Below are positions 6,227 through 23,171 of a stretch of DNA of 23,171 nucleotides, piece after piece. The position numbers and the translations under genes are program-made. The notes below the pieces were generated by a model. The model was not told the origin of the DNA, ran no database searches, and worked only from the letters and a program-made list of their open reading frames with translations. Source of the stretch: a virus; IMG/VR virus record IMGVR_UViG_3300046007_000896, positions 1 to 23,171 of that record; one strand, written 5' to 3'. Each line of letters starts with the position of its first letter. The stretch's first letter is position 1.

Positions 6227-6255
6227 ACCCCGCCCTAATCCGGCGGGGTTTTTTT
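6227..6255 (+). terminator. strong rho-independent terminator between convergent gene blocks
   Basis: ACCCCGCC (6227-6234) pairs with GGCGGGGT (6242-6249) over a seven-base loop and continues into seven T (6249-6255). The T-run overlaps the TAA stop (6256-6254) of the convergent minus-strand gene. On the minus strand the hairpin is not followed by a T-run, so it should act mainly on rightward transcripts. The remaining bases between 6159 and 6226 are pyrimidine-rich without a gene. Confidence 0.9.
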
Positions 6256-9200
6256 ATTTGTTTAGTCCTAATTTAGTCATACGCATAAGGTAGTACAGCA
6301 CCTCGTCGGACTCTGCTGTAAGCCCACCAGATACGGTGGCTTTTGCTCTGGCTTCTGCTTTGCGCCTCAAGCTGGAGTTTATATTTTCGGTTTCAAACGG
6401 ACGGTAGGGATTAGCAAGGCTATAGGTAATCATTTTTTCTATTATGGTATTCATTTTTGCATAAGCAGCATCTGTGCTCTTACCCTGTTTTTCCGCTGCT
6501 TCCAACTCCATGTACGCATTATTAAGTTCATTTAAAAGTTTATTGCGTTCTATTTTTTTCGCTTCATCAAATCGTTTGGCTTCAAAAATAGCGTTTTGTA
6601 TTTCTTTTTCTGTAACAGTTTTGAACCCTACACCTTGCGCAATCAATTTACCCGCAGTGAAAAACTCCGGCTGTATAAGTTCCGCGCCCATAGGAGTAAC
6701 AGACCCTTCAGTAGCAAGCCGGTTAGCCACCAGTGTGCCTCTAAAGAACGCGGGAACTATTCTTTCCGCTCCACGTAAAAATTTACCTTCGTTCATTAAC
6801 TCAACCCCGGACGCTATTTGACCTACCACACTAAGCGCCGGAGGAGATAAATGACTAAAAATAGCTTGTTGCACCCAGTCTTTCGCTCCATCGGCTAACA
6901 CTTCATCCCGGAAGAACAAATTATTAAGCCCTACAGAGCTGCCTATATCTACGTCAAGCATTGTGGATATAGGCCCAGACACTACTCCCGAACCTTCTCC
7001 AAAAATACTAGGTATATACGTTCTGGTAAACCATAGACCGAGAGGCACATTACTTCGTGGGTCTTCAGGGTCAGTGTATTTTGTAGGGTCGAAAAGCTGG
7101 TCTCGTAATCCCTCCAGTAGCCCCATTATTAAACTGAACATAGGAAGCCCGGTTACCCCCGCAAACATGTATATGGCCCCCAAAGTACCGAATAATTCAA
7201 TCGCTGCCTGTTTTGCTGCAACAGGGTCTTTACTTTGCAAACCAGACAACATCGTTGCAGCGTTACGTATTAAAAACCCCGCAGCGTTCAGCGGGAAAGT
7301 CATAAACTGGAAAAACACTCTCGCCCCAGCATTTTTATAGAGCATGGGTTGTTTGTTCATGCGGCTGTAGTCAAACATAGATTTAGCAGTGTCTTTTTCC
7401 GCTTCCAAGAGCGCACGGGCATTAGCATCTGCGCCGCCTACTTTTTCTTTTTTCGCTTTGTTATACGCAAGTTCATACGCAGACATAAACATTATCTCAC
7501 GTGACACCCGTTCCGCAGTGCTAAAAGCAGCGGTGAGAAATCCATAGACCGTTTTTTTCGCACGTACAGCTGGGGTGTATTGTTCGTAAGTAGGGTTCTC
7601 TGCTACTTGTTTAAATTGCGACCCAAAACCTTGTTCAAATACACCCCACAATCCGCCTTGTTCGTGCGCAGCAGCCAACCTTGGGTTGTTTTTCAAGTAC
7701 GTTGAATTTTCGATTGTCGGTAAAACCCACTCAGAAGTAACTTCGCCTTTTAAATTTGTGTACGAGTTTTTTACTGACAGCGCATTTGTGGATAACAAAA
7801 GCCCAGTGTACTTGGCCATCATAGCCATAGTATCCATTGCCCCATACTTAGCCGTTAAAACAGACGCACCAAATGTCGGCAACTGAGTAAACGCCACCAA
7901 CGCCGTTTTAAGCGAAGTCATGGTGTATAGGAACGTAGCCTGATTAGCAAATTGCGCCGCAGCGTCAAGCCAAGTCTCATTGCTGTCCGGGGCTAGTTCA
8001 GGCTGCGCCCTTTCTTTAATAGCTTGAGTTAAATCTTTTACAGCACTTACTGAATCAACCGGTTGCCCTTCTGCAGAATCCACTGCTGCATCTAATTGCG
8101 TAGCGAGGGCCATCCCGTATTTAATACGAGGAAGTTGGTTACTGTGCTTATAAGAAGAAACTATAAACGTGCGCAATACGTCAGAAGAAAACCCGGCTTT
8201 TTGCGTGCTACGCAAATATCGCTTACGTAAGTCGGCTCCGGGTAAGGCTCTTAAATACATGTCAAGAAACTCATCCTTTAGCCCGGATAGCGCATTTTGA
8301 CTGATACTTAACTCACCCGTCTTAGTGTCCAGATTCATTTGACCACTTAACCCATCTATCTTGGCGAACACATCTTGCAAGATTTGAGTTGTCTTTAATT
8401 TGTTGTCTTCGCTAAATAATGTCTTTTTTAATTCATCAGGGTTGTTACCCACTTCTATAGGCGGAAGTTTGTCTGCGGGTGTATCACGCTCCACTTGCCT
8501 ACGGTACCTGTCTCTGGCAAATTCACTGTCAAAAAACTGCGTCTCTCCGTTCTTGCCTTTACCAATTCGTATCCAGTAATCACCGTGCCTACCTAACGGG
8601 AAGTAGACTCCTACTTTATGCACATCAGAAAATAACGCTTTGAATATGGGGGAGAGTTTTTCCTGCAGGTCAGTCGCTTCTGACAACCCCAAAGTATTCG
8701 TTATTTCCGCTACAACACCTCTAATAGCGGCTTCGTATTCTTCCAACTGTTTCTTGTATGCTTCTTGAAGAGACTTATAAATACTTCTACCTTCGCCCCC
8801 CAAAGAATCATATTTTTTGTACGCATACTCTATTTGCTGGATACGCGCTTTCTTCCTTTTCAGGTTGTAATCTTTATTGTTACGGTACTTCGGGTCTTTT
8901 GCACGCGCGTCGTAATATTGAACCGTCTCATCGTTTTCTATAGCGGTTACTACATCTGTTTTGGACGGGTCGATCTGGTATATTCTAGCCGCGTTGGTGG
9001 CTTCTCCTAAACGAACTAAATTTTTAGGATTTTTAGCGCCCCATTTCAAAGTTAAGTCTATAAGGCGGTCATCTATTCGTCTTATTTTGTTTCTCAACTC
9101 CGGTATTTTTCTTAACAGTATATCTTCAACAGTCGCAAGAGGTGCTACACCTATTTTCTTCGCCACATCAAATAAACCACGAGTGGTAAGCGCTTGTGTA

Positions 9201-12200
9201 AACTTCAATCTTTGCGCTTTATTCATAATAGTACGGAACATACCACTTAACTCTGAAGAATCTTTTGAAGATAACGTATGAGTGAGTGTATACAACAACC
9301 CGGATTCGCGTACTACTCTATCCGCTGCGGCAGTAACATCTTCTATTTTGCGTTGCTCTTTGGTTTTTTTGCCTTGCGCAAGTTCATTTAATTGCCCCCT
9401 GTTTGCGCCATTTTTAAACACCTGATTGGATATACTGATAATGTCTGTAATTGTGTCAACCGCTTCGTCAAATATTGACGTTCTGGGGGAGAAATTAAAG
9501 AACTCAGCAATAGCACGCACAATACGGGTAAATATATTGCCTCTGTCTAGCGCTTTAACTTCTTCTTGAAATGCTTTGTTCGATATTAATTCAGAAGCAA
9601 ATTCATCTATATTTCTGGTGCCGTAACGCTTACCTAGCTTCTTTTTTACGAGATTAAACAGCTTTGTTAAATCTTGTGTAAATTTAAGTTTGGTATTGCT
9701 AAGTACATGGCTTATAGCTGCATGAATCAACTCATGCACCAGCACAGGTTCATTTATTTGAGTGGGGTCTATGGTGATGGTGTCGGCATTAGAATCGTAG
9801 TTTCCCCCAAACTCCGGGTCTGTGGATTCCTGCACAACTAGTCTAGTTTTTAACCCCAGCCCTCGTATAGCTGACATCACACGTCTAACTATAGGGTCAT
9901 TAGTAGTCTTTATTATATGGTCAATTACCGCGCCAGTGTCGCCGTTAGTAACAAGCACTACACCCGCATCGCTCAAAGGAGGAGCGACATATTTTGGAGC
10001 GTTTAGTATTTCTATGTCAGGGTGGTTTTCTGCAATAGTTTTGGCTATTTCAACTTCTTTTTCCTTAGCTATTTTATCCCCAAGCAATTTATTTGAGAGC
10101 GCTTCAATAGCTTCTTTTGGGTTACCGCTTTGGGCAACGTACCTAAAGAGATTCGCAAGATTAGATATTCGACTGTATATGCGGTCTGCTACCGCATCAG
10201 ACGTAACCCCCGGTATATAATTATTGGTGGTTAATAATTCTTTTGCTTCTTCCGCAGCATGAGTTCGCACAACGTCAGTCAGATTTGTGGTTTCCCCTGT
10301 GTCGAAATCTAATTTAGCAAGTGTATATCTACCATCTAAAGTATTAGTAACCCCGTCAGCTAAATCCATTACTTTAGCGTCAAGCTCTTCTCCTTCCAGT
10401 CTTTCGGGCGGTTGCTGGGCTAGGAACTTTCCAGCGGTAGGAGCACTTAAGTCAGCAAGTTTTTTTTCCAATTCTCTAATTAAAGCTGGTAAAACTTTTT
10501 TACGGGCTGCTTCAGTTTTAGGGTTCTCTAGTTCAAGCCTCGCAGTTAAATATTGATTAGACACAGCGTCTATTATTTTACGTTTTCTCTCCTGTGCGTT
10601 TTTAAATATTTTACGCTGTTTCCGTTCGGGGCCCTCATACTCCACGTCTTGAGTGGAACCGTATAGCTCAAATTCCTCTTCCGCCAGTTCTGCCGCGTCT
10701 TCTGCGTCCTCTGCGCGTTCCGACTCCACCGGGTATAAATCAGCTATTAAACTTTCATAATCTTCCGGGCTTAAATTTTCTTGGTCTACGTCGTAGCTAG
10801 TATCAGAAGGCGTAGGCTCTTCTGTGTATTGCGTTGTTGTCTTTTTGCTCTCTTGAGTAAAAGGTGTCTGCAAATATCTAAGTATTTTCGCCATAGGGTT
10901 TGGCGTAGCAGACGTAGGTTGTTCCACAAGCGCAGGTGTAGGTGTTACCGCTTCTTTTACTGGCGCAGGTGTGGGGGCTACGGTGGCTAGATCTACGGGT
11001 GCGGGTTTACCTATCTGATCCAGCGCGGCGGCATTTATACGATTTTCGTAGTCTCCTAAGGACTCACCCTTATTCTGTAGTATTACAGCATGTGCTTTTT
11101 CATGTGCAACAACAAAATTCTGCCACTCCTGTAATGTTTTAAAGGTATCTTCAGGTAACGGGGCAACTCCTTCTTTCTTAGGTTTAGTCCAAGCCTTGTC
11201 GTTATACCGTTTTTCCAGTTCCTTCGGGTTTATCGTTATAACCCCTGTTTTTCTATTGCGTCTTGCCCATGCCTTACCTTTGGGAGTATTATCTTCATAT
11301 TCTATTACTGGTTCTTCTACCGGTGCAGGGGCTACGGTTTCTTTTACTGGCTGTTCTACCGGTTGTTCTACAGGCGCAGGTGTAGGTGTTACGGCTTCTT
11401 TTACCGGCTGTTCTACCGGTTGTTCTACCGGCGTAGGCGCGGGGGTTACAGCTTCTTTTACCGGCTGTTTTACTGGTGTAACTTCAATAATTTTATTACC
11501 AAAATGAATTCCTCGCGCATCATCTCCTAAAGGACTTTCAGAATTCCATATTTCTACAGGGGACAAACCTTCTTTTGGGGTAACTGTGTACGGCGCAGAC
11601 GCTAAAACATCTCCTTTTTTCTTAGGCCCGTAATCTTCTGTTAATACTACTTGCGCTACGTTTTCCCCATTTACTTTTGCAGGAACAAGCTGAGTCGCTA
11701 TATCTACATTTTGTAACACCCCACCAAGAGTTTGAACACCTGATTCCGTAAGGTATATAGTTTTCCCCGAAGCTGGCTGCACTCCAACCGTTGAGTCTTT
11801 ATGTTTTTCCCCACTACGGTTTCTTACTGTTTGCCCTGTTTCGGTTTGTGCATACGTAGACCCTCTAGCAGTTTTAAATAAATGAGTTACCCCCGGTAAG
11901 TTATCAAAAGGAGCGTAATCTGGTGTAGTAGGCGTGGGGGCTGCGGCTTCTTCTATCGGCGCAGACGCGGGTGTGGAAGCTACTGTGTTAGATTTCTCTA
12001 TAAGTTTATTTACTATATCTTCTTCAGTATCTTCCTCATCAACCGCGATGTTATTCGCTTTGGCGGTCTCTCGTAACTTTTTTAACTGGGGAGCTACTGT
12101 TGTTTCTTTACCCGTTTCTTCCTCTACTTTCTTACCTACTTCCTTCCCTACTTCATTTTCAAACTTCTTGGCCTGTATTTTATCCGCCAAAGTTTCAACA

Positions 12201-13339
12201 TTATCTTCAGAAGTGACCGGCACACCTAAACTTTCCGCGTCTACTTTTAAATTCTCAAACTCCGCCGTTTCGTCAATAGTTTCATCGCCTATGCCTGTGT
12301 CCAAGTCACCTTTGCCTATTTCCGGCGCGGCAGTCGGCTTACCTAAAAATACATCTGCTCCACCACCGGTAACACCACCTACCAGTCCTTCTAACGCACC
12401 TGCTCCTGCTACCCCCCGCATGGTGGGCACGTCATAACCTGCTCGTTGCGCGGCTACGTTTCTAGCGTACTGTTCTTGTGCTCCCTGTAGTGCTTCAGGC
12501 GCAGCTTCTTTAAAGGCTCCTTCTACAAACCGTCTTGGGGCACCTTTAGCTGTTTCTTCAACCGTTTTTTCAGCTACTTCTTTACCTACTTTTTTAGCTA
12601 CGTTCCTGCCTATGGCGGAAACTAATGTTTTTTCAAGCCCCGTAGCACTCGCTAACCCTCCAAGGAAACCTCCTGTCATAATCAGGTCTAGGTTATCCCC
12701 GGTATAAGATTGCGCAGCATCCGCAGCTTTTTTCGCTTCGTCTTCTGGCACTCCCGCTTTCTTTGCTTCTTCGAGTACAGAGTTGTATATTGCATTTTTT
12801 ACGGTACCCACACCCATAGCGGAACCCAACCCAACAGCAGCGGTACCCACCGCAGCTTCTGGAAGCGCAAGAGCTGAAATAGCAACAGGGGCGGCGTAGC
12901 CTAAAGCGTTAGATACCAAATCTACAGGGGCAACAGACAGGGCTTTAAGTCCCGCTTTAACTTGTTCCCACGCGCCCTTATCTTGGGCGTCCTGCATTAT
13001 CCGGGCTATTTCTTGCTGGTCGTTTTTGGCCTGCGCCGATAACAAACTATCCAACCAGCTTTCCACACCGTATATGGATTTAGATATTTCGTTATCCGCC
13101 CCAAGAGTATCCGCAATTAACCCGACTCCACCTACAGCACCTTTGCCTATATTAATCGGTATGTCAGCGGCACTGCGTAATATGCCTTGACTCTCCGGTT
13201 CAGGTTTGGGAGTGGTGAAGAGTGGGGTGGGCAGCAAATAGTCCGGTACTGTATCCCCGGACTTAAACTTAGATTGTAATGAAGAAGGTAATAAATTAAT
13301 TGGAACTACATCCCCAGATTTAAAAACAGAGTTTGCCAT
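6254..13339 (-). CDS. giant PLxRFG-type polyvalent protein with two HExxH protease-like modules
   Basis: 2361 residues, the largest gene here and last of the late operon. In order: a doubled N-terminal peptide (FKSGDVVPINLLP at 6-18, FKSGDTVPDYLLP at 25-37); Ala/Gly-rich amphipathic or membrane-like stretches (about 55-335); an acidic helical region (about 350-450); Pro/Val/Glu linker repeats (about 621-676); a module with HEKAH at 746-750; a second linker copy (about 785-811); acidic stretch; a second zinc-protease-like motif HELIHA at 1202-1207 with a likely third ligand in DEFASEL (E1246 or E1250); PLGRHG at 1581-1586, matching the PLxRFG signature; and a long helical C-terminal part with hydrophobic segments near 1808-1853 and 2046-2077. 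Known polyvalent proteins are thought to be packaged and ejected with phage DNA to act in the host early in infection; that role here is inference. Start ATG 13339 shares one base with the upstream stop (TAATG). Confidence 0.85.
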   Translation of the reverse strand: MANSVFKSGDVVPINLLPSSLQSKFKSGDTVPDYLLPTPLFTTPKPEPESQGILRSAADIPINIGKGAVGGVGLIADTLGADNEISKSIYGVESWLDSLLSAQAKNDQQEIARIMQDAQDKGAWEQVKAGLKALSVAPVDLVSNALGYAAPVAISALALPEAAVGTAAVGLGSAMGVGTVKNAIYNSVLEEAKKAGVPEDEAKKAADAAQSYTGDNLDLIMTGGFLGGLASATGLEKTLVSAIGRNVAKKVGKEVAEKTVEETAKGAPRRFVEGAFKEAAPEALQGAQEQYARNVAAQRAGYDVPTMRGVAGAGALEGLVGGVTGGGADVFLGKPTAAPEIGKGDLDTGIGDETIDETAEFENLKVDAESLGVPVTSEDNVETLADKIQAKKFENEVGKEVGKKVEEETGKETTVAPQLKKLRETAKANNIAVDEEDTEEDIVNKLIEKSNTVASTPASAPIEEAAAPTPTTPDYAPFDNLPGVTHLFKTARGSTYAQTETGQTVRNRSGEKHKDSTVGVQPASGKTIYLTESGVQTLGGVLQNVDIATQLVPAKVNGENVAQVVLTEDYGPKKKGDVLASAPYTVTPKEGLSPVEIWNSESPLGDDARGIHFGNKIIEVTPVKQPVKEAVTPAPTPVEQPVEQPVKEAVTPTPAPVEQPVEQPVKETVAPAPVEEPVIEYEDNTPKGKAWARRNRKTGVITINPKELEKRYNDKAWTKPKKEGVAPLPEDTFKTLQEWQNFVVAHEKAHAVILQNKGESLGDYENRINAAALDQIGKPAPVDLATVAPTPAPVKEAVTPTPALVEQPTSATPNPMAKILRYLQTPFTQESKKTTTQYTEEPTPSDTSYDVDQENLSPEDYESLIADLYPVESERAEDAEDAAELAEEEFELYGSTQDVEYEGPERKQRKIFKNAQERKRKIIDAVSNQYLTARLELENPKTEAARKKVLPALIRELEKKLADLSAPTAGKFLAQQPPERLEGEELDAKVMDLADGVTNTLDGRYTLAKLDFDTGETTNLTDVVRTHAAEEAKELLTTNNYIPGVTSDAVADRIYSRISNLANLFRYVAQSGNPKEAIEALSNKLLGDKIAKEKEVEIAKTIAENHPDIEILNAPKYVAPPLSDAGVVLVTNGDTGAVIDHIIKTTNDPIVRRVMSAIRGLGLKTRLVVQESTDPEFGGNYDSNADTITIDPTQINEPVLVHELIHAAISHVLSNTKLKFTQDLTKLFNLVKKKLGKRYGTRNIDEFASELISNKAFQEEVKALDRGNIFTRIVRAIAEFFNFSPRTSIFDEAVDTITDIISISNQVFKNGANRGQLNELAQGKKTKEQRKIEDVTAAADRVVRESGLLYTLTHTLSSKDSSELSGMFRTIMNKAQRLKFTQALTTRGLFDVAKKIGVAPLATVEDILLRKIPELRNKIRRIDDRLIDLTLKWGAKNPKNLVRLGEATNAARIYQIDPSKTDVVTAIENDETVQYYDARAKDPKYRNNKDYNLKRKKARIQQIEYAYKKYDSLGGEGRSIYKSLQEAYKKQLEEYEAAIRGVVAEITNTLGLSEATDLQEKLSPIFKALFSDVHKVGVYFPLGRHGDYWIRIGKGKNGETQFFDSEFARDRYRRQVERDTPADKLPPIEVGNNPDELKKTLFSEDNKLKTTQILQDVFAKIDGLSGQMNLDTKTGELSISQNALSGLKDEFLDMYLRALPGADLRKRYLRSTQKAGFSSDVLRTFIVSSYKHSNQLPRIKYGMALATQLDAAVDSAEGQPVDSVSAVKDLTQAIKERAQPELAPDSNETWLDAAAQFANQATFLYTMTSLKTALVAFTQLPTFGASVLTAKYGAMDTMAMMAKYTGLLLSTNALSVKNSYTNLKGEVTSEWVLPTIENSTYLKNNPRLAAAHEQGGLWGVFEQGFGSQFKQVAENPTYEQYTPAVRAKKTVYGFLTAAFSTAERVSREIMFMSAYELAYNKAKKEKVGGADANARALLEAEKDTAKSMFDYSRMNKQPMLYKNAGARVFFQFMTFPLNAAGFLIRNAATMLSGLQSKDPVAAKQAAIELFGTLGAIYMFAGVTGLPMFSLIMGLLEGLRDQLFDPTKYTDPEDPRSNVPLGLWFTRTYIPSIFGEGSGVVSGPISTMLDVDIGSSVGLNNLFFRDEVLADGAKDWVQQAIFSHLSPPALSVVGQIASGVELMNEGKFLRGAERIVPAFFRGTLVANRLATEGSVTPMGAELIQPEFFTAGKLIAQGVGFKTVTEKEIQNAIFEAKRFDEAKKIERNKLLNELNNAYMELEAAEKQGKSTDAAYAKMNTIIEKMITYSLANPYRPFETENINSSLRRKAEARAKATVSGGLTAESDEVLYYLMRMTKLGLNK
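11311..11478 (-). repeat. 57-bp in-frame repeats encoding a Pro/Val/Glu linker
   Basis: Three copies of a 57-base unit (anchor points at 11351, 11408 and 11465) encode a 19-residue linker, PVEQPVEQPVKEAVTPAPT and variants, in the 2361-residue protein. A fourth, shorter copy lies at about 10905-10985, on the other side of the HEKAH module. The units differ by few bases, some of them silent, so they arose by recent duplication. Confidence 0.85.
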
Positions 13340-16300
13340 TATTTAAACCGCCACTGCCCATTAGTAAACACTATGGGCGCTCCATTCACCGCAGTGCTTA
13401 CATCTCCTTCTTGTGCTCCACCACCACTACCAACACTAGCATTAGCACCGCTACCAATGTTGCCTAGTAGATACTGTAATCGCTCATCTTCAAGCTGCTT
13501 TCTTCTTTCTGGTGATGTTTTAGGGTCTTTATATTCTTTTTGGTCTGGTGCCATACCAAGTGGGTTGCTAAAATACGCCTGAATTTCTTTTACGGCATCG
13601 TCTAGACGTTCCTGTTCAAATTGCGCTGTTCTTGCATCAGTACTAAATATAGAAGCCTGAGCTTGTTGACGTGCGTATTCGTTTTGTGCTTCTAATCTTA
13701 TAGTTGCTTCAGGACGTTTATCTCCTTTGGCTCGTTGAGCATCATAATATCTCTGCTCATACGTGTCTCTATCGGAAGGTTTATTTGCATTAGCTTGAGT
13801 AGCTGCAATACGTTCTCGTTCCAACTTATCCGCTTCTTTGTCTCTTGAGGTGTCATACTCAGCTTTCGCTATAGCTAAATCTCGTGCAATTTGTTCTTTA
13901 CGTGATTCTTTCTTCGACCCGGCAAGTTTATCAAGTTTTTCAGAATATCCTTTAAACGCAGGGGTTAATCCTTCTCCTACACCCGCAAGGAAATTAGGTG
14001 ACTGCCCCGCCATAAGATTAAACCCACCAGCAATAAGAAAGTCATTAAACGCATCCTGTTTTTCTTTAGCCAGTTCTTCTTCAGTCATTTCAGTAGAAGG
14101 AGCTTTTCTTAGTGACTCAATATAACGAGCCACCGGGTCTTCTTTTGGAGCTTCACGTCTACCCGGTATTTGAGTTTTATCTATTTCTTGTAACTGCTCA
14201 ATACCAATACTCTGTGGTGCCGGTGCGCTTGTCGGCGTAATAGCGGATAACCCCATATTAAGTTCTTCATCTCTTACGTTGGCACTAGGTGACCCAGCTA
14301 AGTCACTAACTTGCCTTCTTTGCGGTATCTGCTTGGTATTTATTTCCTCAACCCCCGGTAATATGGGCAGTCCTTTGGCTTCCGCTTCCGCCCTCAATTC
14401 GGGCAAAGATTTGTTAAACAACTTCCTACGCTCGTTTAATTTATCTTTTTCCGAGCTAGTAGCTGTTAAAAAATCTATTAATTTTTCTCGTTCGTTTATT
14501 TTTTCTTCCGCAGACGCAAAAGGTTTTTTAAGAACATCATAAATACTATACCCCGCTGGTTTAGGGGGTGTGTATTCAACACCCTCGGGAATGTACGGCG
14601 CAAGGTAGTCATATTTAACACTATCTCCCGCACCATACCCAACAATCCCACCTTCCGCAGCGGTAAACGCATTTTCAGGAAGAGGGGCGGAGGCTAATCC
14701 GGCAGTTTGAGGTTGTGGATTGAGTAGCTTCTGAGCAACAGTAGAATCCGGCGGTTGTGGGGCACTCATTTGTTTTGCTACCATACTTGCCGCCATCGTT
14801 CTCACTATATCGGGTACCCCGGGTATTCCGTTTATCTGGTTAATATCCCCTCGTGTACTCACTACAAGGTCACGAGCTTGTTTGCCCAACCCTTCCACGC
14901 TGGGAGCCGCGACATCTTGAGGAGCGTCCATAGGTTGAGGAGCAATCGCACCTAGCCCCATCTGTTGTTCCGCCCCACCACCTTCAGCAAGTGCAACCAG
15001 ACCGCCGTTGTTGTATGCCTTTATCTCGCCACCTTCAGCGGAGTTGAAAGTTCTGTAAGCCCCATACCCAGCCATACCCAAACCAGCCAACTGACTTGCA
15101 AGTGACGCAGGTTGTGAATATGTTGAGCTAACTGTTGAGGGCCCCGGAGACGGAACGCCGCCAAGCAAACTTGCGTACTGTTGCAGCTGTTGCATTGGGT
15201 ACTGCTGTTGGCGCAAGAAATCCTGATACCGCATATCAAGTTGTTGCTGATTAAGCGCCTGTTGTTCCGCACCTGCCCCACTAATAGCCCCATACCGCTG
15301 AAGCTCCGCAGCCTGTTGAGCAGAACCTAACCCACCCAGAGCCTGCGCAGCCTCTAACCCCATACCCGCACCAGTTAACCCCAACCTACGAGCTTCCAGT
15401 TCCGCCTGCTGATTAGCCAACCCAGCCTGCATACCCTGCTGCGCACCCAATGCCTGCACTCCAAGAAGCGCAGAAAGATTCTGTTGTCCTATCGTTAACC
15501 CAGCCTGCTGATTGGCAAGTGCCGCCCGGAGAGCCTGTTCCTGATTCATTCCCTGAGCTTGTAATTTAGCCGCTTGATTTTGTACATTGGCCTGTTGTTG
15601 AGTATTTAAATTAGCAAGTGCGGATTCCAGCCCAGTACGTGTACCTAACTCTTGTACGCCCAGTCTAGCCGCAAGATTCTGTTGCTCCGCCTGTTGTCTT
15701 GCCTGCTGATTAGAAAGAGCCGCCTGAAGCTGGCTTTGAATATTTGTCTGTTGCGCCTGCAACCCACGCCCTTGTTCCGCTTCAAATTGACGCTGCGCAG
15801 CCTCATACGCCGCCTGAGAACCTGTGGCTTGAATATCCCCTAACTTTTGACTCAGCGTACTTTCGCGTTCTCCTTGCAATAACGCCTGTCTAGCCCCACC
15901 ATAAGTACCTTGTCGAGCTGCAGCAAGATTCTGTCCTAACTGTGCTTTTTGTGCGTCGTATATGGCTTCCTGCTTTTGCACATCCACCACATTTTGCATA
16001 TAAGGGGACATATATTGTGATGCAACACCGGGTTGCACAAACGACCCAGTACTGGCGCGTTCCGCAGCAACACGCTCAGGGCCTTCCATTTGGAAGGTTT
16101 GTAAATTAGGAGCAAACCCTGTCTGCGCCGCAGTCATCTGAGGTGCGCGAACCATACGGGAACTTACTTCCCGAGCAGGCCCCATTGTGTATTGAGAAAG
16201 CTGTGGAGCCTGTACGTTAGGAGCTGGTTGATACGCACCCAATCCCGCCAATCCTGCTTGGGTAGCAAACTGTGTGGCCGTGTTAAATTGTCCTGCAGGT

Positions 16301-16515
16301 TGAAGTCCTAAAATACCCTGTTGCGCCGCTGTCTGCCCGGGGGTAAATCCGGCTATACGCTGGTCTTGGTAAGGAGTGTAAGGCTGATACGAAAGCTCTT
16401 GCCCACGCGATAAAACATCGGCCACATATGGCTGCATATATGAAGGCAACTGGGGGGTTACTACCTGTGACCCTGTTGGCATCGTGTTACTTTGTTTGCT
16501 GCTGCTGCTTCCCAT
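13339..16515 (-). CDS. large Ala/Gln-rich virion protein, probable ejected internal protein
   Basis: 1058 residues. N-terminal region rich in Gln, Tyr and Pro (PSYMQPYVADVLSRG). Residues about 168-246 carry a motif I know from many phage structural proteins: MSPYMQNVVDVQKQEAI, then GTYGGARQALLQGE, then YEAAQRQFEAEQ. Residues 263-394 are four tandem 33-residue helical repeats. A low-complexity Gly/Pro section follows with GG motifs (AEGGEIKAYNNGG near 495, AEGGIVGYGAGD near 619), then charged helices, a phage motif GGFNLMAGQSPNFLAGVGEGL, and the C-terminus NGAPIVFTNGQWRFK. No enzyme motif. An internal virion or DNA-ejection role fits composition, length and position between tail genes and the polyvalent protein, but is inferred. 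ATG 16515 has AGGAG upstream; the start overlaps the GNAT-like gene by 29 bases. Confidence 0.7.
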   Translation of the reverse strand: MGSSSSKQSNTMPTGSQVVTPQLPSYMQPYVADVLSRGQELSYQPYTPYQDQRIAGFTPGQTAAQQGILGLQPAGQFNTATQFATQAGLAGLGAYQPAPNVQAPQLSQYTMGPAREVSSRMVRAPQMTAAQTGFAPNLQTFQMEGPERVAAERASTGSFVQPGVASQYMSPYMQNVVDVQKQEAIYDAQKAQLGQNLAAARQGTYGGARQALLQGERESTLSQKLGDIQATGSQAAYEAAQRQFEAEQGRGLQAQQTNIQSQLQAALSNQQARQQAEQQNLAARLGVQELGTRTGLESALANLNTQQQANVQNQAAKLQAQGMNQEQALRAALANQQAGLTIGQQNLSALLGVQALGAQQGMQAGLANQQAELEARRLGLTGAGMGLEAAQALGGLGSAQQAAELQRYGAISGAGAEQQALNQQQLDMRYQDFLRQQQYPMQQLQQYASLLGGVPSPGPSTVSSTYSQPASLASQLAGLGMAGYGAYRTFNSAEGGEIKAYNNGGLVALAEGGGAEQQMGLGAIAPQPMDAPQDVAAPSVEGLGKQARDLVVSTRGDINQINGIPGVPDIVRTMAASMVAKQMSAPQPPDSTVAQKLLNPQPQTAGLASAPLPENAFTAAEGGIVGYGAGDSVKYDYLAPYIPEGVEYTPPKPAGYSIYDVLKKPFASAEEKINEREKLIDFLTATSSEKDKLNERRKLFNKSLPELRAEAEAKGLPILPGVEEINTKQIPQRRQVSDLAGSPSANVRDEELNMGLSAITPTSAPAPQSIGIEQLQEIDKTQIPGRREAPKEDPVARYIESLRKAPSTEMTEEELAKEKQDAFNDFLIAGGFNLMAGQSPNFLAGVGEGLTPAFKGYSEKLDKLAGSKKESRKEQIARDLAIAKAEYDTSRDKEADKLERERIAATQANANKPSDRDTYEQRYYDAQRAKGDKRPEATIRLEAQNEYARQQAQASIFSTDARTAQFEQERLDDAVKEIQAYFSNPLGMAPDQKEYKDPKTSPERRKQLEDERLQYLLGNIGSGANASVGSGGGAQEGDVSTAVNGAPIVFTNGQWRFK
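15334..15729 (-). repeat. four tandem 99-bp units encoding 33-residue hendecad-like repeats
   Basis: Residues 263-295, 296-328, 329-361 and 362-394 of the 1058-residue protein align without gaps, each opening with (L/M)xAxLANQQA or a close variant; units 1 and 3 also share QNLxAxLGVQxLG exactly 66 residues apart. A period of 33 is three 11-residue turns, as in right-handed coiled coils and membrane-surface amphipathic helices. Confidence 0.8.
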
Positions 16516-18862: not shown

Positions 18863-20785
18863 TTACCTCTGCCCGTCTTCTCTGCCGTCTAAACGTATCG
18901 TACCTAAAGACCAAGCTACTCCCAAATCTTCAGAACTTACTTTAAGCGCCATCTGCCTAGCACGAGCGCGAATGAATACTTGTTGTGTAAAAGAGTCAAC
19001 ACTGGTCTCTGTGACATTCGCGGTATCGTCGTTTGTTGTGTTAAACGTAGAACCGGGGAAGTTTCGGGTGCGTATAGTAAGTGTAACCTCCGGGTTTTCC
19101 ACCGTAGAAGACTCAAATGAAATATCGGGAATCATGCGTTTGGTTAAAATAAATTTATCCCCATCCGCGAGGTCAAAGTCATTGGATTGAATATAGGCTT
19201 CTATCGCCGCGCCATCAGCATCAGTGCCGTACTCTTGGTTGTAAAACGTACCTATCTGGGTATCGTAATCGGTGTCTACGGCCTGTGGGTACTGCCGCAA
19301 AGGAGAGTCAATCCATGCTGTGCGGTTAATTGAGCCAAAATACCATATGTTTTCGCCGTAATTATAAATCACATAGCGGTCTACCGTTGCGCTTGTAGCA
19401 CTGGGGTAGAACCACCAAACCTCGTTAAACGCTTCGTTTGTGCCAGATATAATCTGGTCTGCCTGCGTAGTATTCATGTTACCAAATACATACTTCCTGA
19501 CCGTACACGGCAGGGTATCCACACGGCCAGAATAGACATAGAACTTATCTATGCCCATCCAATATGTAATGTTGTTAGCAGTCACTACCACGCGAGGCGA
19601 CATAATAGATATGTTGTCAGCGTATTCCTGCAACGAAAACACATCGGTAGTACCCAAAAACTGCAAAGAACTTAAACTGGCATCTGTCCAAACAAGTATC
19701 TCCTGTCTGGTTGGCATTGCGCAAACAATTCTGGAGCCTCGTGAAACCCTCAAAAACCCTGCTGAGTTCGTTACCAACGGTTCCCACTGCCCCGGGTTAT
19801 CTTGGTCTGCCCAACGAATCAACAAGGGGTCGAAATCAGCACTCGAAGTAGAGCCATACGGAACCGCACCAAAAGCAAGTAGGTGTTTATCGTTCTGGGA
19901 TAATAAAAGCTGCCCAACCACAATAGGCACGTCATTGGAGTCGTACCCCTGAGCCGTAGCGTAAGCTTGAAGAGTAATAGCTCGGGTAGCCAGTGCCGTT
20001 GAGGGGTCATCCGTTGTACCACGTTCCCAATAATAAGGCGCACCGTTGCGTATGTTCATAGCCAAGTCATTATCGAAATTGGCAAACCACCAATCCCGTT
20101 GCGCTATGAATACACCGGATGTAGCGCCTGAACCCTCGCCCCAACCCAAGCGCCCCCAACCACCAGTACCCCACCCATAGCCAAAATACCCATTAGCCGC
20201 GCCTATACTAATTTCATACGCGCCCACGACCGCCGCCCCGCCATTACCCGTGTCGCTGGCATTTGCTGTAACAGTAACCCCGCTCGTGTTTTTAGCTGTT
20301 ATGGTGTATGAATTGGCGTTAATGATTGTAGCTATTTCATAGTTTTGGTTTAAAACCGCCGCCGTTATGTTACCCCCCAAAGACACCGCCCCGGAGTAAG
20401 TAACAAAATCTCCTGCGATTGCGCCGTGCGCGTTATCGGTAACCGTTAAAGTGGATGAGCCATTAGTAGCAGCAAAAGTAACTTCCCCCGCAGCTGTGGT
20501 CGTTCTTAGAGGAGTGATGTCGTATAACGTACCACCACCCTCGATATATACCTTTTTATTCGTGCCCAACGCGCAGAAATTGTCATTATAGGTAGTAATC
20601 CATCCCCACATCTGACGACAAGTGCCTAGTATTTGAGCCGTGGTGTAAGAAGCCCAACCACCTATCTTTTGCGCGAAACCGCTGAAAAAGCGTACCTTTT
20701 CAGTCTCCCACCAGCCGCCTTCGCCAGTGTAGTTGGTCTGGTCTCTGTTTACTCCCGAACGAAACTCAAGTTTTATAAATGGCAT
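18863..20785 (-). CDS. tail hub / packaged-DNA stabilisation protein (P22 gp10-like)
   Basis: 640 residues. The N-terminus, [19 protein letters not shown] then GGWWETEKVRFFSGFAQKIGGW, is the recognisable start of a widespread phage structural family related to the P22 gp10 stabilisation protein (Phage_stabilise-like), which closes the portal channel and forms the tail nozzle. The rest is beta-rich with repeated Trp, Tyr and Gly motifs suggestive of a propeller-like body, e.g. QMWGWITTYNDNFCALGTN, ILVWTDASLSSLQF and YWMGIDKFYVYSG. An inserted Thr/Ala-rich beta domain lies at about 100-195 (ITAAVLNQNYEIATI, an Ig-like or hub-surface domain). Its ATG 20785 overlaps the endolysin stop (TGATG). 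Family call moderately firm; a T7 gp12-like nozzle is the alternative. Confidence 0.7.
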   Translation of the reverse strand: MPFIKLEFRSGVNRDQTNYTGEGGWWETEKVRFFSGFAQKIGGWASYTTAQILGTCRQMWGWITTYNDNFCALGTNKKVYIEGGGTLYDITPLRTTTAAGEVTFAATNGSSTLTVTDNAHGAIAGDFVTYSGAVSLGGNITAAVLNQNYEIATIINANSYTITAKNTSGVTVTANASDTGNGGAAVVGAYEISIGAANGYFGYGWGTGGWGRLGWGEGSGATSGVFIAQRDWWFANFDNDLAMNIRNGAPYYWERGTTDDPSTALATRAITLQAYATAQGYDSNDVPIVVGQLLLSQNDKHLLAFGAVPYGSTSSADFDPLLIRWADQDNPGQWEPLVTNSAGFLRVSRGSRIVCAMPTRQEILVWTDASLSSLQFLGTTDVFSLQEYADNISIMSPRVVVTANNITYWMGIDKFYVYSGRVDTLPCTVRKYVFGNMNTTQADQIISGTNEAFNEVWWFYPSATSATVDRYVIYNYGENIWYFGSINRTAWIDSPLRQYPQAVDTDYDTQIGTFYNQEYGTDADGAAIEAYIQSNDFDLADGDKFILTKRMIPDISFESSTVENPEVTLTIRTRNFPGSTFNTTNDDTANVTETSVDSFTQQVFIRARARQMALKVSSEDLGVAWSLGTIRLDGREDGQR

Positions 20786-21252
20786 CAGGCAACCAACCCA
20801 GTCATGTATTTAGTTTTGCCGTCTATTTTAGCGGCAGTAAGCGTCTCTTTCTTTAACTCGTTAGGGTCGTATGACACATGCACCCACCCGCTATCTGGTA
20901 CGCCGGGGATATAAAACTCAAGGATAACCTGTTTAAACTCGAGGTTGTCCCGTATCCATGTAGCCAACTCTGCGTTAGGCACCCCAGCAATCTCAATGTC
21001 TGCCGCGCAGCCGGTAATGTGGTCAGAAGTCTTGGAGCCCCTTGCCAGCAAATTGACCTCCTCGCTGCGATACCCACTATTAATCTTTACAGGCTCCCCG
21101 TAATGGTCTCGGACGGGCTGCAACACTTTCTCACACAGTAACTTCAAGTTATTCACAACTTCGTCCGAGTCTGGTTTGTTGTCAATTCCGCAATCACGCG
21201 CCAACTGACTGCGGCATAACTCGTCAAAAGTGAAGTTTTTACTTAGGTTCAT
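20785..21252 (-). CDS. M15-family D-Ala-D-Ala carboxypeptidase-like endolysin
   Basis: Cuts peptidoglycan cross-links at lysis. With start at 21252 it has 155 residues: KINSGYRS near 56-63, [10 protein letters not shown] with zinc ligands H78 and D85, and WVHVS with H125, the full M15_3 set. No signal peptide or wall-binding domain, so it needs the holin to leave the cytoplasm. I chose ATG 21252 over the in-frame ATG 21276 because AAGGGGGGAG sits directly upstream and because the ATG overlaps the HNH stop as ATGA. Its stop overlaps the start of the tail-hub gene. Confidence 0.9.
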
Positions 21253-21635
21253 TTCTCCCCCCTTTTTCCGGCCCATCTGCCTTTTTTAACCATATCTTCT
21301 GAGTTTTCTTTTGGGGTGCCAATCCATAAATGCCGAGGGTTAAAACAAAGTCTATTATCACATGAGTGGCAAACGAACTTACCGTCTGGAATTTGACCAT
21401 TAAACAATTGATAGGAATAACGATGAGTTGTAAAAACACCTGACTTTACTGACCCAAATTGACCATATCCTGTTTGTTTAAAAACAGCACCATCCCAATT
21501 CCAACATTCATTTTCGCCCCATTGTTTGTCAATGTGTGATTTAAATCTGCAATTATTTGAACACCACTTTTCCCTAGATGTTTTTGGGCTAAACAGGGAA
21601 TTACAAAACCGGCAATTTCTATCTTTGTAAATCAT
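21249..21635 (-). CDS. free-standing HNH homing-type endonuclease
   Basis: 128 residues from ATG 21635. N-terminal zinc finger with C8, C11, C25 and C29 (CRFC, CSNNC), then [28 protein letters not shown], and the HNH_3 core [20 protein letters not shown] with H90 and H102 plus N111 in [10 protein letters not shown], ending [11 protein letters not shown] longer frame starts at 21710 but lies inside the holin gene; ATG 21635 overlaps the holin stop as ATGA and is far more likely. Hand count gives about 36% G+C against about 47-52% in the two flanking lysis genes, supporting recent arrival. Sits between holin and endolysin. Target site unknown. Confidence 0.9.
21253..21264 (-). promoter_or_regulatory. 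ribosome binding site deciding the endolysin start
   Basis: AAGGGGGGAGAA immediately precedes ATG 21252 on the minus strand. It lies inside the last codons of the HNH gene and supports 21252 rather than 21276 as the endolysin start. Confidence 0.7.
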
Positions 21636-22039
21636 TTTTTCCCACGCATATCTGCCAACTTTTCTATAGTACGGCCACCAAAATATGCGAGGAAGACTAT
21701 TTGGCCCCAACTTCCTAAGAGCTGGACATAGCTTTCTTGCGCGTTATACCCAAACGCACTCATAGCAGTAAAAAGAAAATAAGCCGTGAAGATTGCTATA
21801 AGAGCCATAGGGCGTATGTTTTTGGACAGCCAAGAGTCGCTACTCATGTCGGCTTTCCAGCGATCTGTAACCGCTGCATGTTCAAGTTTGAACAGTTCTG
21901 TCTCATTAGCCATCGCAGTTAATTCGCCGTTTTGGGCGAGTTTCGCTAACTCAAGCTGCGCAGCCGCTTTTGCCTGTGGGTCTGGGATAAGTTTATCAAC
22001 CAGCTTCCCGCCAATGTTTAAAAGTGCATCAAGTACCAT
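21632..22039 (-). CDS. holin of the 3TM / GTA-holin type
   Basis: 135 residues. Matches the layout of the GTA_holin_3TM family: N-terminal helix ([19 protein letters not shown]), a long charged helix ([18 protein letters not shown], ending [19 protein letters not shown]), then hydrophobic segments at about 78-97 ([16 protein letters not shown]) and about 104-121 ([18 protein letters not shown]), and a basic end. It opens the inner membrane so the cytoplasmic peptidase can reach the wall. Start ATG 22039 has AGGGGG upstream. The stop overlaps the HNH start (ATGA), and the lysin follows that gene, so holin, HNH and lysin form one coupled cassette between fibre and tail-hub genes. Confidence 0.85.
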
Positions 22040-22072
22040 AACGCCCCCTATGTTACGTTAATTTTTTAGTTT

Positions 22073-23171
22073 TCACTGACCTGTCAGTATCTTTTGCAAT
22101 TTTTCAACAATCAACCTACCGTTTTCGTCTGTTGTTACTGAGTTAAGTGCGGTCTCATCTTTTCTTTCACCTGTAACTTCCCAGTAAACTTCATCGGTTG
22201 AATTAATGTCTTCGCAGAAAATCTCAAGAACAGCCCCGTTTAAAATACTTTTTACCGCTGCAAAACCGCTTTCATTTTTTGTAAATCTTATGCAATTACG
22301 ATTAAGTGCTTCAAATGTGCCCTGTGTCATATTAAAACACTCGTCGATATTTATTGTTGCTCTGCCGTTTACCAATCTAACCATTTCGCTGTATTTATTA
22401 TTTATACGAGGACTTTCTATAACGGAATGAATTAGTCGGTGCGTGGGGCTTAAATTTGTTAGTGGGTGTGGTATATTAAAATTTTTCGTCCCTGTAACAT
22501 CTAAATCCCCGTCTATAGTTATTCCAGTCCATCCGTTATACCCAGTCATATACCCATCATATCTAAGGTCTGTGTATATTCCAGCAAAAGACCCGGAAGC
22601 CACGAACCCATTGTCTGCCCTAAGATTCCCCCCGGCAGTTATATCTCCGCTTGTATTAATAGTAGCCGCGTTCAAGGTACCTGTAAAAGTTGGAGAAGCA
22701 GACAGCACCACGTCCCCGGAGCCCGTAGAAGTCGTAACACCTGTACCACCCCTAGCGACCGACAAAGTACCTGTAGTCCCAGCAACTATAGGCAACCCTG
22801 TACAGTTAGTCAGAGTGCCCGAGCTGGGAGTGCCTAACGCGCCACCATTCGTTACAAAAGCGCCTGCACTACCTACGTTTACCGCCAAAGCAGTAGCTAC
22901 GTTTGTACCCAACCCACTCACACCCGTAGAAATAGGTAGCCCAGTACAACTGGTCAAAGTACCCGAAGCAGGAGTGCCAAGAGCCGGTGTAACAAGCGTA
23001 GGAGATGTAGCAAAAACCAACGCGCCCGAGCCTGTTTCGCCTGTAACCGCCGCCGCTAAATTGGCGCTTGTGGGAGTAGCCAAGAACGTAGCCACACCCG
23101 TGCCCAAACCAGACACACCCGTAGAAATAGGTAGCCCAATACAACTAGTCAAAGTACCCGAAGTGGGATCT
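22073..23171 (-). CDS. tail fibre protein, N-terminus cut by the window edge
   Basis: At least 365 residues; the frame is open through the right edge, so the TTG at 23152 is internal. The visible N-terminal part is repeats rich in Gly, Thr and Ser (SGTLTxCTGLPISTGVSG, PTLVTPALGTP) that form beta-rich shafts in many aquatic phage fibres. A C-terminal domain follows, with DITAGGNLRADNG, DLDVTGTKNFNIPHP, RLIHSVIESPRI, VRLVNGRATINID, and an end GERKDE, TDENGRLIVEKL, a pattern common to phage fibre C-termini. Receptor binding is the expected role; the virion-attachment domain is off the window. A 33-base gap to the holin gene follows. Confidence 0.85.
   Translation of the reverse strand, partial: DPTSGTLTSCIGLPISTGVSGLGTGVATFLATPTSANLAAAVTGETGSGALVFATSPTLVTPALGTPASGTLTSCTGLPISTGVSGLGTNVATALAVNVGSAGAFVTNGGALGTPSSGTLTNCTGLPIVAGTTGTLSVARGGTGVTTSTGSGDVVLSASPTFTGTLNAATINTSGDITAGGNLRADNGFVASGSFAGIYTDLRYDGYMTGYNGWTGITIDGDLDVTGTKNFNIPHPLTNLSPTHRLIHSVIESPRINNKYSEMVRLVNGRATINIDECFNMTQGTFEALNRNCIRFTKNESGFAAVKSILNGAVLEIFCEDINSTDEVYWEVTGERKDETALNSVTTDENGRLIVEKLQKILTGQ
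22075..22088. repeat. short perfect inverted repeat at the fibre gene end
   Basis: ACTGAC and GTCAGT flank two bases, spanning the end of the fibre gene. The two-base centre is too tight for a good hairpin and no T-run follows on the minus strand, so it is more like a protein-binding half-site pair than a terminator. Function unknown. Confidence 0.35.
22799..23171 (-). repeat. tail-fibre shaft repeats (65- and 48-residue units)
   Basis: Unit 1 (23137-22943, 65 codons) and unit 2 (22942-22799, 48 codons) both open with GLPISTGVSGLGT and close with a GTLTxCT motif. The near-identical DNA is 195 bases apart around 22926 and 23121. The shorter unit lacks 17 codons. The repeats continue past the window edge. 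Confidence 0.8.

Follow-up and report, generated by a model that had tools for sequence, protein, structure and literature searches.

A probably mobile HNH endonuclease gene at a putative landing site for nucleases in a phage lysis operon

Between the holin and lysin genes of a viral record of 23,171 bases, analyzed here over its whole length as the window, lies an HNH endonuclease gene. It is a mobile gene, probably spread by homing, and occupies a place in the lysis operon where nucleases appear to land repeatedly. On sequence comparison, the gene is inserted, the holin gene beside it is chimeric, the nuclease gene has moved apart from its flanks, and nuclease genes recur at the same seam. 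The best overall explanation, in which our confidence is slightly above even, is a free-standing HNH_3 gene that is mobile between phages and settles at the start/stop seam of holin and lysin, probably by homing. Free-standing nuclease genes are known from phages; how such a gene enters a tightly packed operon without harm is less clear. Near-identical phages with and without the gene, and a single joint of four bases at which nucleases of several families are found, make a clean system.

The HNH gene and its two seams

The features of the window that concern us here are the following.

20785 to 21252, minus strand: lysin gene, peptidase M15_3, 155 aa (PF08291, 2.6e-20; phrog_894, endolysin)
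21249 to 21252, minus strand: seam 2, ATGA common to the HNH stop and the lysin start
21249 to 21635, minus strand: HNH_3 endonuclease gene, 128 aa (PF13392; predicted fold with I-HmuI as best solved match)
21253 to 21875, minus strand: block unlike the HNH-free loci L001, L004, and L006, made up of the holin 3' part and the HNH gene
21255 to 21262, minus strand: GGGGGGAG at the HNH 3' end, from its sequence the probable Shine-Dalgarno of the lysin
21300 to 21428, minus strand: HNH_3 domain, residues 70 to 112 (profile match and 15-sequence alignment)
21549 to 21614, minus strand: four N-terminal cysteines, C8, C11, C25, and C29, present in 8/8 alleles
21632 to 21635, minus strand: seam 1, ATGA common to the HNH start and the holin stop
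21632 to 22039, minus strand: holin gene, GTA_holin_3TM/phrog_3427 (PF11351, E 8.6e-10; phrog_3427, 3.5e-24), chimeric, with 5' 164 nt of the type of the local phage lineage and 3' 240 nt of another type

The holin, middle, and lysin genes matched the Pfam families GTA_holin_3TM, HNH_3, and Peptidase_M15_3, respectively, each above the curated cutoff, and PHROGs assignments were concordant. The record holds one match to the HNH gene. We give 21252 as the likely lysin start only, because a second in-frame ATG lies upstream at 21276. A preliminary description of this DNA had the HNH gene joined to both neighbors by exact ATGA overlaps with alike bases ahead of each, and coordinates and sequence agree: the bases preceding the two ATGA are GGGAAAAA and GGGAGAA. 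Lysine codons together with a Shine-Dalgarno-like G-run would produce such a likeness, and no longer repeat was seen in the window. The gene is also A/T rich, as described, with 37.5% G+C against 45.8% in the holin and 48.5% in the lysin gene (30%, 43%, and 58%, respectively, at third codon positions), and in each of the eight alleles treated below, its G+C content is lower than that of the locus around it.

By themselves, two ATGA junctions are weak evidence, because 58 of 261 other adjacent co-oriented ORF pairs in 79 related loci (from the best 80 of 593 relatives) could also be read as 4-nt overlaps by a simple ORF heuristic. Two such junctions have a chance of about 0.05 (0.22 squared), or roughly 1 in 20, and the case therefore rests on relatives. 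Elsewhere in the window, the ORF at 22073 to 23170 is open at the window edge, has repeated motifs, appears tail-fiber-like by eye, and varies in parts among close relatives; further ORFs lie at 6254 to 13339 (2361 aa) and 13339 to 16515 (1058 aa).

The HNH protein scored 41.6 bits against PF13392 (HNH_3), for which the curated cutoff is 24.8. Across 15 aligned sequences, H71, H90, and H102 of this domain are invariant and N94 is nearly so; by analogy, we take these to be the catalytic HNH residues. The stretch with the four cysteines is a possible zinc knuckle. A structure predicted from the 15 sequences had a mean pLDDT of 87.8, and its top match among solved structures was I-HmuI (PDB 1u3e; Z 7.7, rmsd 2.7, 82 residues), with I-PpoI at Z 7.1, both below the tool's conclusive level of 8, so that the likeness is suggestive. 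Foldseek matches to the model had E values of about 0.02, none being below 0.001, and a search of the PDB by sequence gave a chance match only. Between the window allele and that of L101, dN is 0.056 and dS is 0.83; the HNH gene is under purifying selection.

Occupied and empty sites in near-identical phages

A lysin scan of viral contigs returned 20 loci, six of them at 99% lysin identity (W denotes the window allele and L-numbers denote the loci of relatives). L003 and L005, which gave identical counts, carry the same HNH gene; L001, L002, L004, and L006 lack it and are 97 to 98% identical to the window from the lysin on. With the gene missing from four of the six, alignment bears out the earlier view that the gene is an insertion when compared with the nearest relatives. 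Occupied alleles (W, L003, and L005) and empty alleles (L001, L002, L004, and L006) thus coexist in near-identical genomes, as expected of a homing endonuclease.

Compared with L006, L001, and L004, the window shows at least 99% identity from 22472 to 21882 and about half from 21875 to 21636, then the HNH gene, which they lack, and again 97 to 98% from 21252 on. For L006, 399/400 positions matched ahead of the holin; within the holin, the matches fell from 160/164 (5' part) to 126/240 (3' part), and the lysin gave 462/468. Not only in L001, L004, and L006 but also in L002, the final 240 nt of the holin gene are unlike those of the window. Exchange of flanking sequence along with the nuclease gene, which homing also predicts, is thus seen here as 240 nt of holin 3' sequence unlike the empty allele.

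The preliminary description further proposed that insertion had duplicated an ATGA overlap, and that HNH-free relatives would show it intact. More distant HNH-free relatives do show a direct 4-nt overlap of holin and lysin (two annotated records by coordinates; among first-family holin loci from the best 80 of 593 relatives, 75 of 77 overlap the next readable ORF by 4 nt). Of the nearest HNH-free relatives, six have a holin match just upstream, and a direct ATGA holin/lysin junction occurs in none of them: L001, L002, L004, and L006 have TAATG, the holin and lysin of the outgroup L007 overlap by 14 nt, and in L008 there is an ATGA at the holin stop with the lysin start more than 60 nt further on. 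The ATGA of the L008 holin stop opens a very short frame ahead of the lysin. The nearest empty alleles are therefore without the single ATGA that duplication supposes, a finding that the description itself had named as speaking against it. Simple ATGA duplication in the window phage is ruled out by these alleles, with their TAATG or 14-nt overlap. Among empty sites, the direct 4-nt overlap was confined to more distant relatives and to pairs involving other nuclease families or L129.

A chimeric holin and movement of the block

Judged by residue identities, the window holin is a chimera. Its N-half is identical to that of L006 at 53/54 residues and to that of L021 at 39/54; for the C-half, the figures are 43/80 and 73/81. 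The holin 3' end and the HNH gene therefore came as a single block whose end is the lysin start codon. Since the C-half of the outgroup L007 is of the L006 type (70/80), the HNH-bearing allele is the derived one, with a foreign holin end. A chimeric holin needs no nuclease, because a mid-holin crossover also separates the HNH-free contigs L002 and L006, which switch from divergent to identical within the holin, with the last difference at offset 86.

Over 22073 to 21179, W shows no difference from the HNH-bearing L003 and L005, yet its lysin is closer to that of the HNH-free L006 (462/468) than to that of L003 (459/468). L003 differs from W at lysin positions 21178, 21076, 21067, 21052, and 21049, as does the HNH-free L004 and not the HNH-free L006, so that the block has moved between lysin haplotypes. 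By such comparisons, the HNH gene has moved recently and apart from its flanks.

L101 shows the same pattern as the window: compared with the HNH-free L051, L025, and L058, its similarity ends about 150 nt into the holin and returns near the lysin start. The L101 holin (3546 to 4004) combines an N-half of phrog_3427 with a C-half of phrog_1544/9990. Among the collected loci, the only matches to the last 300 nt of this holin gene were L101 itself and L249, which has a different HNH gene at the seam.

The HNH_3 clade across viral contigs

The clade was gathered by a scan with the HNH protein and a scan with the HNH alignment (best 80 of 162), followed by flank checks. Eight distinct alleles, 65 to 100% identical to that of the window, were found: W (= L003 = L005), L101, L102, L103, L104, L128, L129, and L131 (= L130). 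In all eight, the first 4 nt overlap the stop of a holin-type gene (seven ATGA, one GTGA), and the second codon starts with A. At the 3' end, six of the seven readable alleles share ATGA with the lysin, the overlap in L101 being 14 nt; in L103 this end is unreadable at the contig end. Two kinds of gene lie upstream, GTA_holin_3TM/phrog_3427 and phrog_1544. PHROGs gives phrog_1544 no name, and we term it holin-like because the L101 holin fuses a half of each kind. Downstream, the seven genes that can be read encode lysins of three types (M15_3, GH108, and VanY/M15_4). In a flank survey with 11 protein queries, which other holin or lysin families would escape, 8 of 100 HNH loci had holin and lysin flanks, and the other 92 (at most 56% identity, barring short pieces in L111 and L122 to L124) had no holin/lysin flanks.

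Between W and L101, the HNH gene is 84% identical in DNA, against 42% for the holin 3' part and 49% for the lysin, with the left edge at AAAAAATGA. The HNH gene is likewise the most similar part in comparisons of W with L102, L104, and L131; for W and L129, the holin 3' part (67%) exceeds the HNH gene (58%). Altogether, HNH DNA was more similar than both flanks in 8 of 10 evaluable pairs of the HNH_3 clade.

Other nucleases at the same seam

An EndoVII-like family (phrog_1035; PF01844 match in L084) comprised 42 loci. In all 19 of its contigs at 60% identity or more, the start of the gene overlaps the stop of a holin-type gene by 4 nt, and a recognized lysin comes next in 15 of the 19; at the 23 more distant loci, no holin was found at the start. 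Another HNH family (phrog_2255 for L063) comprised eight loci, seven of them at 92% identity or more. Its readable 5' ends follow a holin of one of two types by a 4-nt overlap (6/6; the upstream end of L250 is unreadable at the contig end), and an M15 lysin comes next in 7/7. The eighth locus, L251 (36%), had neither a holin nor a lysin match. The nuclease gene exceeded both flanks in DNA similarity for 14 of 15 phrog_2255-type pairs (one tie) and for 26 of 36 EndoVII-like pairs (two ties). At 60% identity or more, isolated phages gave no match to the three nuclease families (1148, 94, and 30 records matched), and plasmids gave none to the L101 protein (96 records matched). A scan of bacterial genome contigs with the HNH alignment yielded no relatives among 52 pattern matches.

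Five occupied/empty pairs (L063-L029, L084-L086, L056-L046, L079-L076, and L129-L081) lose and regain similarity at the seam, where L056 has an EndoVII-type gene. A pair search over 15 insert loci found L129 as the sole close pair, with L102, L206, and L212 weak and 11 without any. In L079, the 24 nt at the holin 3' end (4382 to 4405) recur at 23/24 positions at 4898 to 4921, at the far end of the EndoVII-like gene and ahead of the lysin. This looks like a true junction duplication, in a nuclease family other than that of the window.

In L276 (2483 to 2905) and L278, a staphylococcal-nuclease gene, with PF00565 scored in L276 and a hydrophobic N terminus by eye, is flanked by a holin-like gene and a lysin of GH108 type, again with a 4-nt overlap. 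Another HNH gene, in L135 (1071 to 1697) and L136 (3818 to 4444), sits downstream of an ORF that is capsid-like by eye and is ATGA-joined to the next gene.

Taken together, these sequence comparisons suggest that the holin/lysin joint is a recurrent landing site.

How general is the seam?

The first holin family was represented by 79 loci, drawn from the best 80 of 593 relatives. L018, where the lysin precedes the holin, was left out, as were L087 and L099, which have no readable next ORF; L050 and L053, with a 14-nt overlap, were scored as misses. Among these best-matching relatives, the next ORF, of whatever kind, is overlapped by 4 nt in 75 of 77 readable loci, and holin-next pairs passed through the same filter as the background pairs above gave 67/67. 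The 75 seams lead into four nuclease-like genes, four other small ORFs, and otherwise genes that are lysin-like by eye, so that within the best 80 of 593 nucleases did not outnumber other small genes (4 versus 4). The small ORFs, of 75 aa and unassigned function, directly follow the holin in L070, L083, L091, and L093 (L091 = L093). The rule is not general, because a second, holin-like family (28 loci) keeps the 4-nt overlap with the next ORF in only 17 (absent in 10, unreadable in 1).

Nearly every gene that follows a first-family holin opens with ATGA or GTGA, and the first bases of an incoming gene would thus supply the holin stop, which would explain the exact ends without duplication. The incoming gene may also be translated by coupling. 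With the stop supplied by the insert and possible coupling, insertion at the seam would be mild. A start/stop overlap may in this way admit a new gene without breaking its neighbors.

Proposed mechanism and alternatives

In the reading we favor, the HNH gene arrived through recombination and brought along a foreign holin 3' part, the left edge of the exchange lying in conserved holin sequence and the right edge at the lysin start codon. Most likely, the HNH enzyme would cleave HNH-free phages near the junction, and repair of the break from an HNH-bearing phage would convert the adjacent holin end. Several observations count against this reading: the nearest empty sites are not ATGA, the holin 3' part is more alike than the HNH gene between W and L129, and a staphylococcal nuclease, which is no homing family, is also found at the seam. 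In addition, holin and lysin sequences around the seam vary across carriers, so that the carriers show no evident common target of the usual length.

It is possible, if on the unlikely side, that the enzyme has no part in its own spread, and that ordinary recombination in holins and in short sequence shared at lysin starts shuffles lysis modules, the ATGA seam being where reading frames survive. The mid-holin crossover between HNH-free contigs fits this, as do the varied lysin types and small ORFs that share the 4-nt seam and the equal numbers of nuclease-like and other small ORFs (four each among 75 junctions from the best 80 of 593, with L091 = L093). What argues against it is the constancy of position, in the loci covered, among close members of three nuclease clades (8/8 alleles, 19/19, and 6/6 readable), together with nuclease DNA that often surpasses both flanks in similarity (14/15 phrog_2255-type, 26/36 EndoVII-like, and 8/10 HNH_3 pairs). 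A less probable account treats the seam as a dedicated niche into which several nuclease families were repeatedly recruited since a late, lysis-coupled nuclease pays, for example because it cuts DNA of rivals in the same cell, be it their lysis genes or other sequence; an NTGA start would then be the sole rule of entry, and movement would not require homologous flanks.

We consider it distinctly improbable that selection for a role in lysis, and not homing, keeps the nucleases in place, with a late enzyme coupled to holin and lysin that breaks down DNA at about the time of lysis or damages competitors infecting the same cell. Purifying selection on the HNH gene accords with such a role, as does the presence of HNH_3, EndoVII-like, another HNH, and staphylococcal nuclease genes at one seam with two holin-type families and three lysin types; presence and absence among 97 to 98% identical contigs suggests, however, that the HNH gene is dispensable, and known homing enzymes exist among HNH and EndoVII-motif proteins (PMC2988022 and PMC6083498, in their available text). 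An intron-borne gene is least credible by far. HNH_3 genes may sit in introns, according to the accessible part of PMC10448857, but the start/stop overlaps leave an intron no space. No group I intron or other Rfam match at the gathering threshold was found in 20500 to 22400, and on this ground the candidate was rejected.

Comparison with known systems

A mobile nuclease such as we propose is known in kind; its position and breadth are apparently new within the literature and collections covered. Holins beside such nucleases can be chimeras, which calls for caution in naming lysis genes from partial similarity. Among known enzymes, I-HmuI is the best structural match to the HNH model, as predicted, and is intron encoded; the window gene differs in being free-standing and in having the N-terminal four-cysteine stretch.

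The available text of PMC10448857, PMC12724721, PMC2988022, PMC3765740, PMC6356687, PMC6728339, and PMC6083498 makes no mention of a nuclease gene at a holin/lysin joint, and among literature titles and abstract openings, a coverage mostly outside subscription journals, we recognized no nuclease at a holin/lysin ATGA joint. ATGA overlaps and translational coupling are treated in PMC6728339, as far as its accessible text goes.

T4-type free-standing endonucleases lie between conserved genes, with co-conversion of flanks, and mobE overlaps the nrdA stop (UAAUGA), suggesting coupling (PMC2988022, in the portion available). The window HNH gene resembles mobE and the seg genes described there in lying between conserved genes, overlapping the upstream stop, and having exchanged flanks. 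It differs in that the T4 sites tabulated in the same portion do not include a holin/lysin joint, and in its exact 4-nt overlaps at both ends and widely differing flanks, cleavage being a prediction in the present case.

HEGs of ICP1 and other phages are found near essential genes and at the edges of exchanged blocks, and a single locus can tolerate distinct HEGs (PMC10448857, accessible part). The window shares with them a nuclease near essential genes and at an exchange boundary, and distinct nucleases at one locus; there, the genes concerned are those for terminase, capsid, tape measure, polymerase, and reductase, and the accessible text does not name holin. Finally, F-CphI, an intron-associated homing endonuclease with an EndoVII motif at the cyanophage psbA locus (PMC6083498, in the text available), is a precedent for the EndoVII-like family at the seam, the psbA locus and the intron association setting it apart from the EndoVII-like genes found here.
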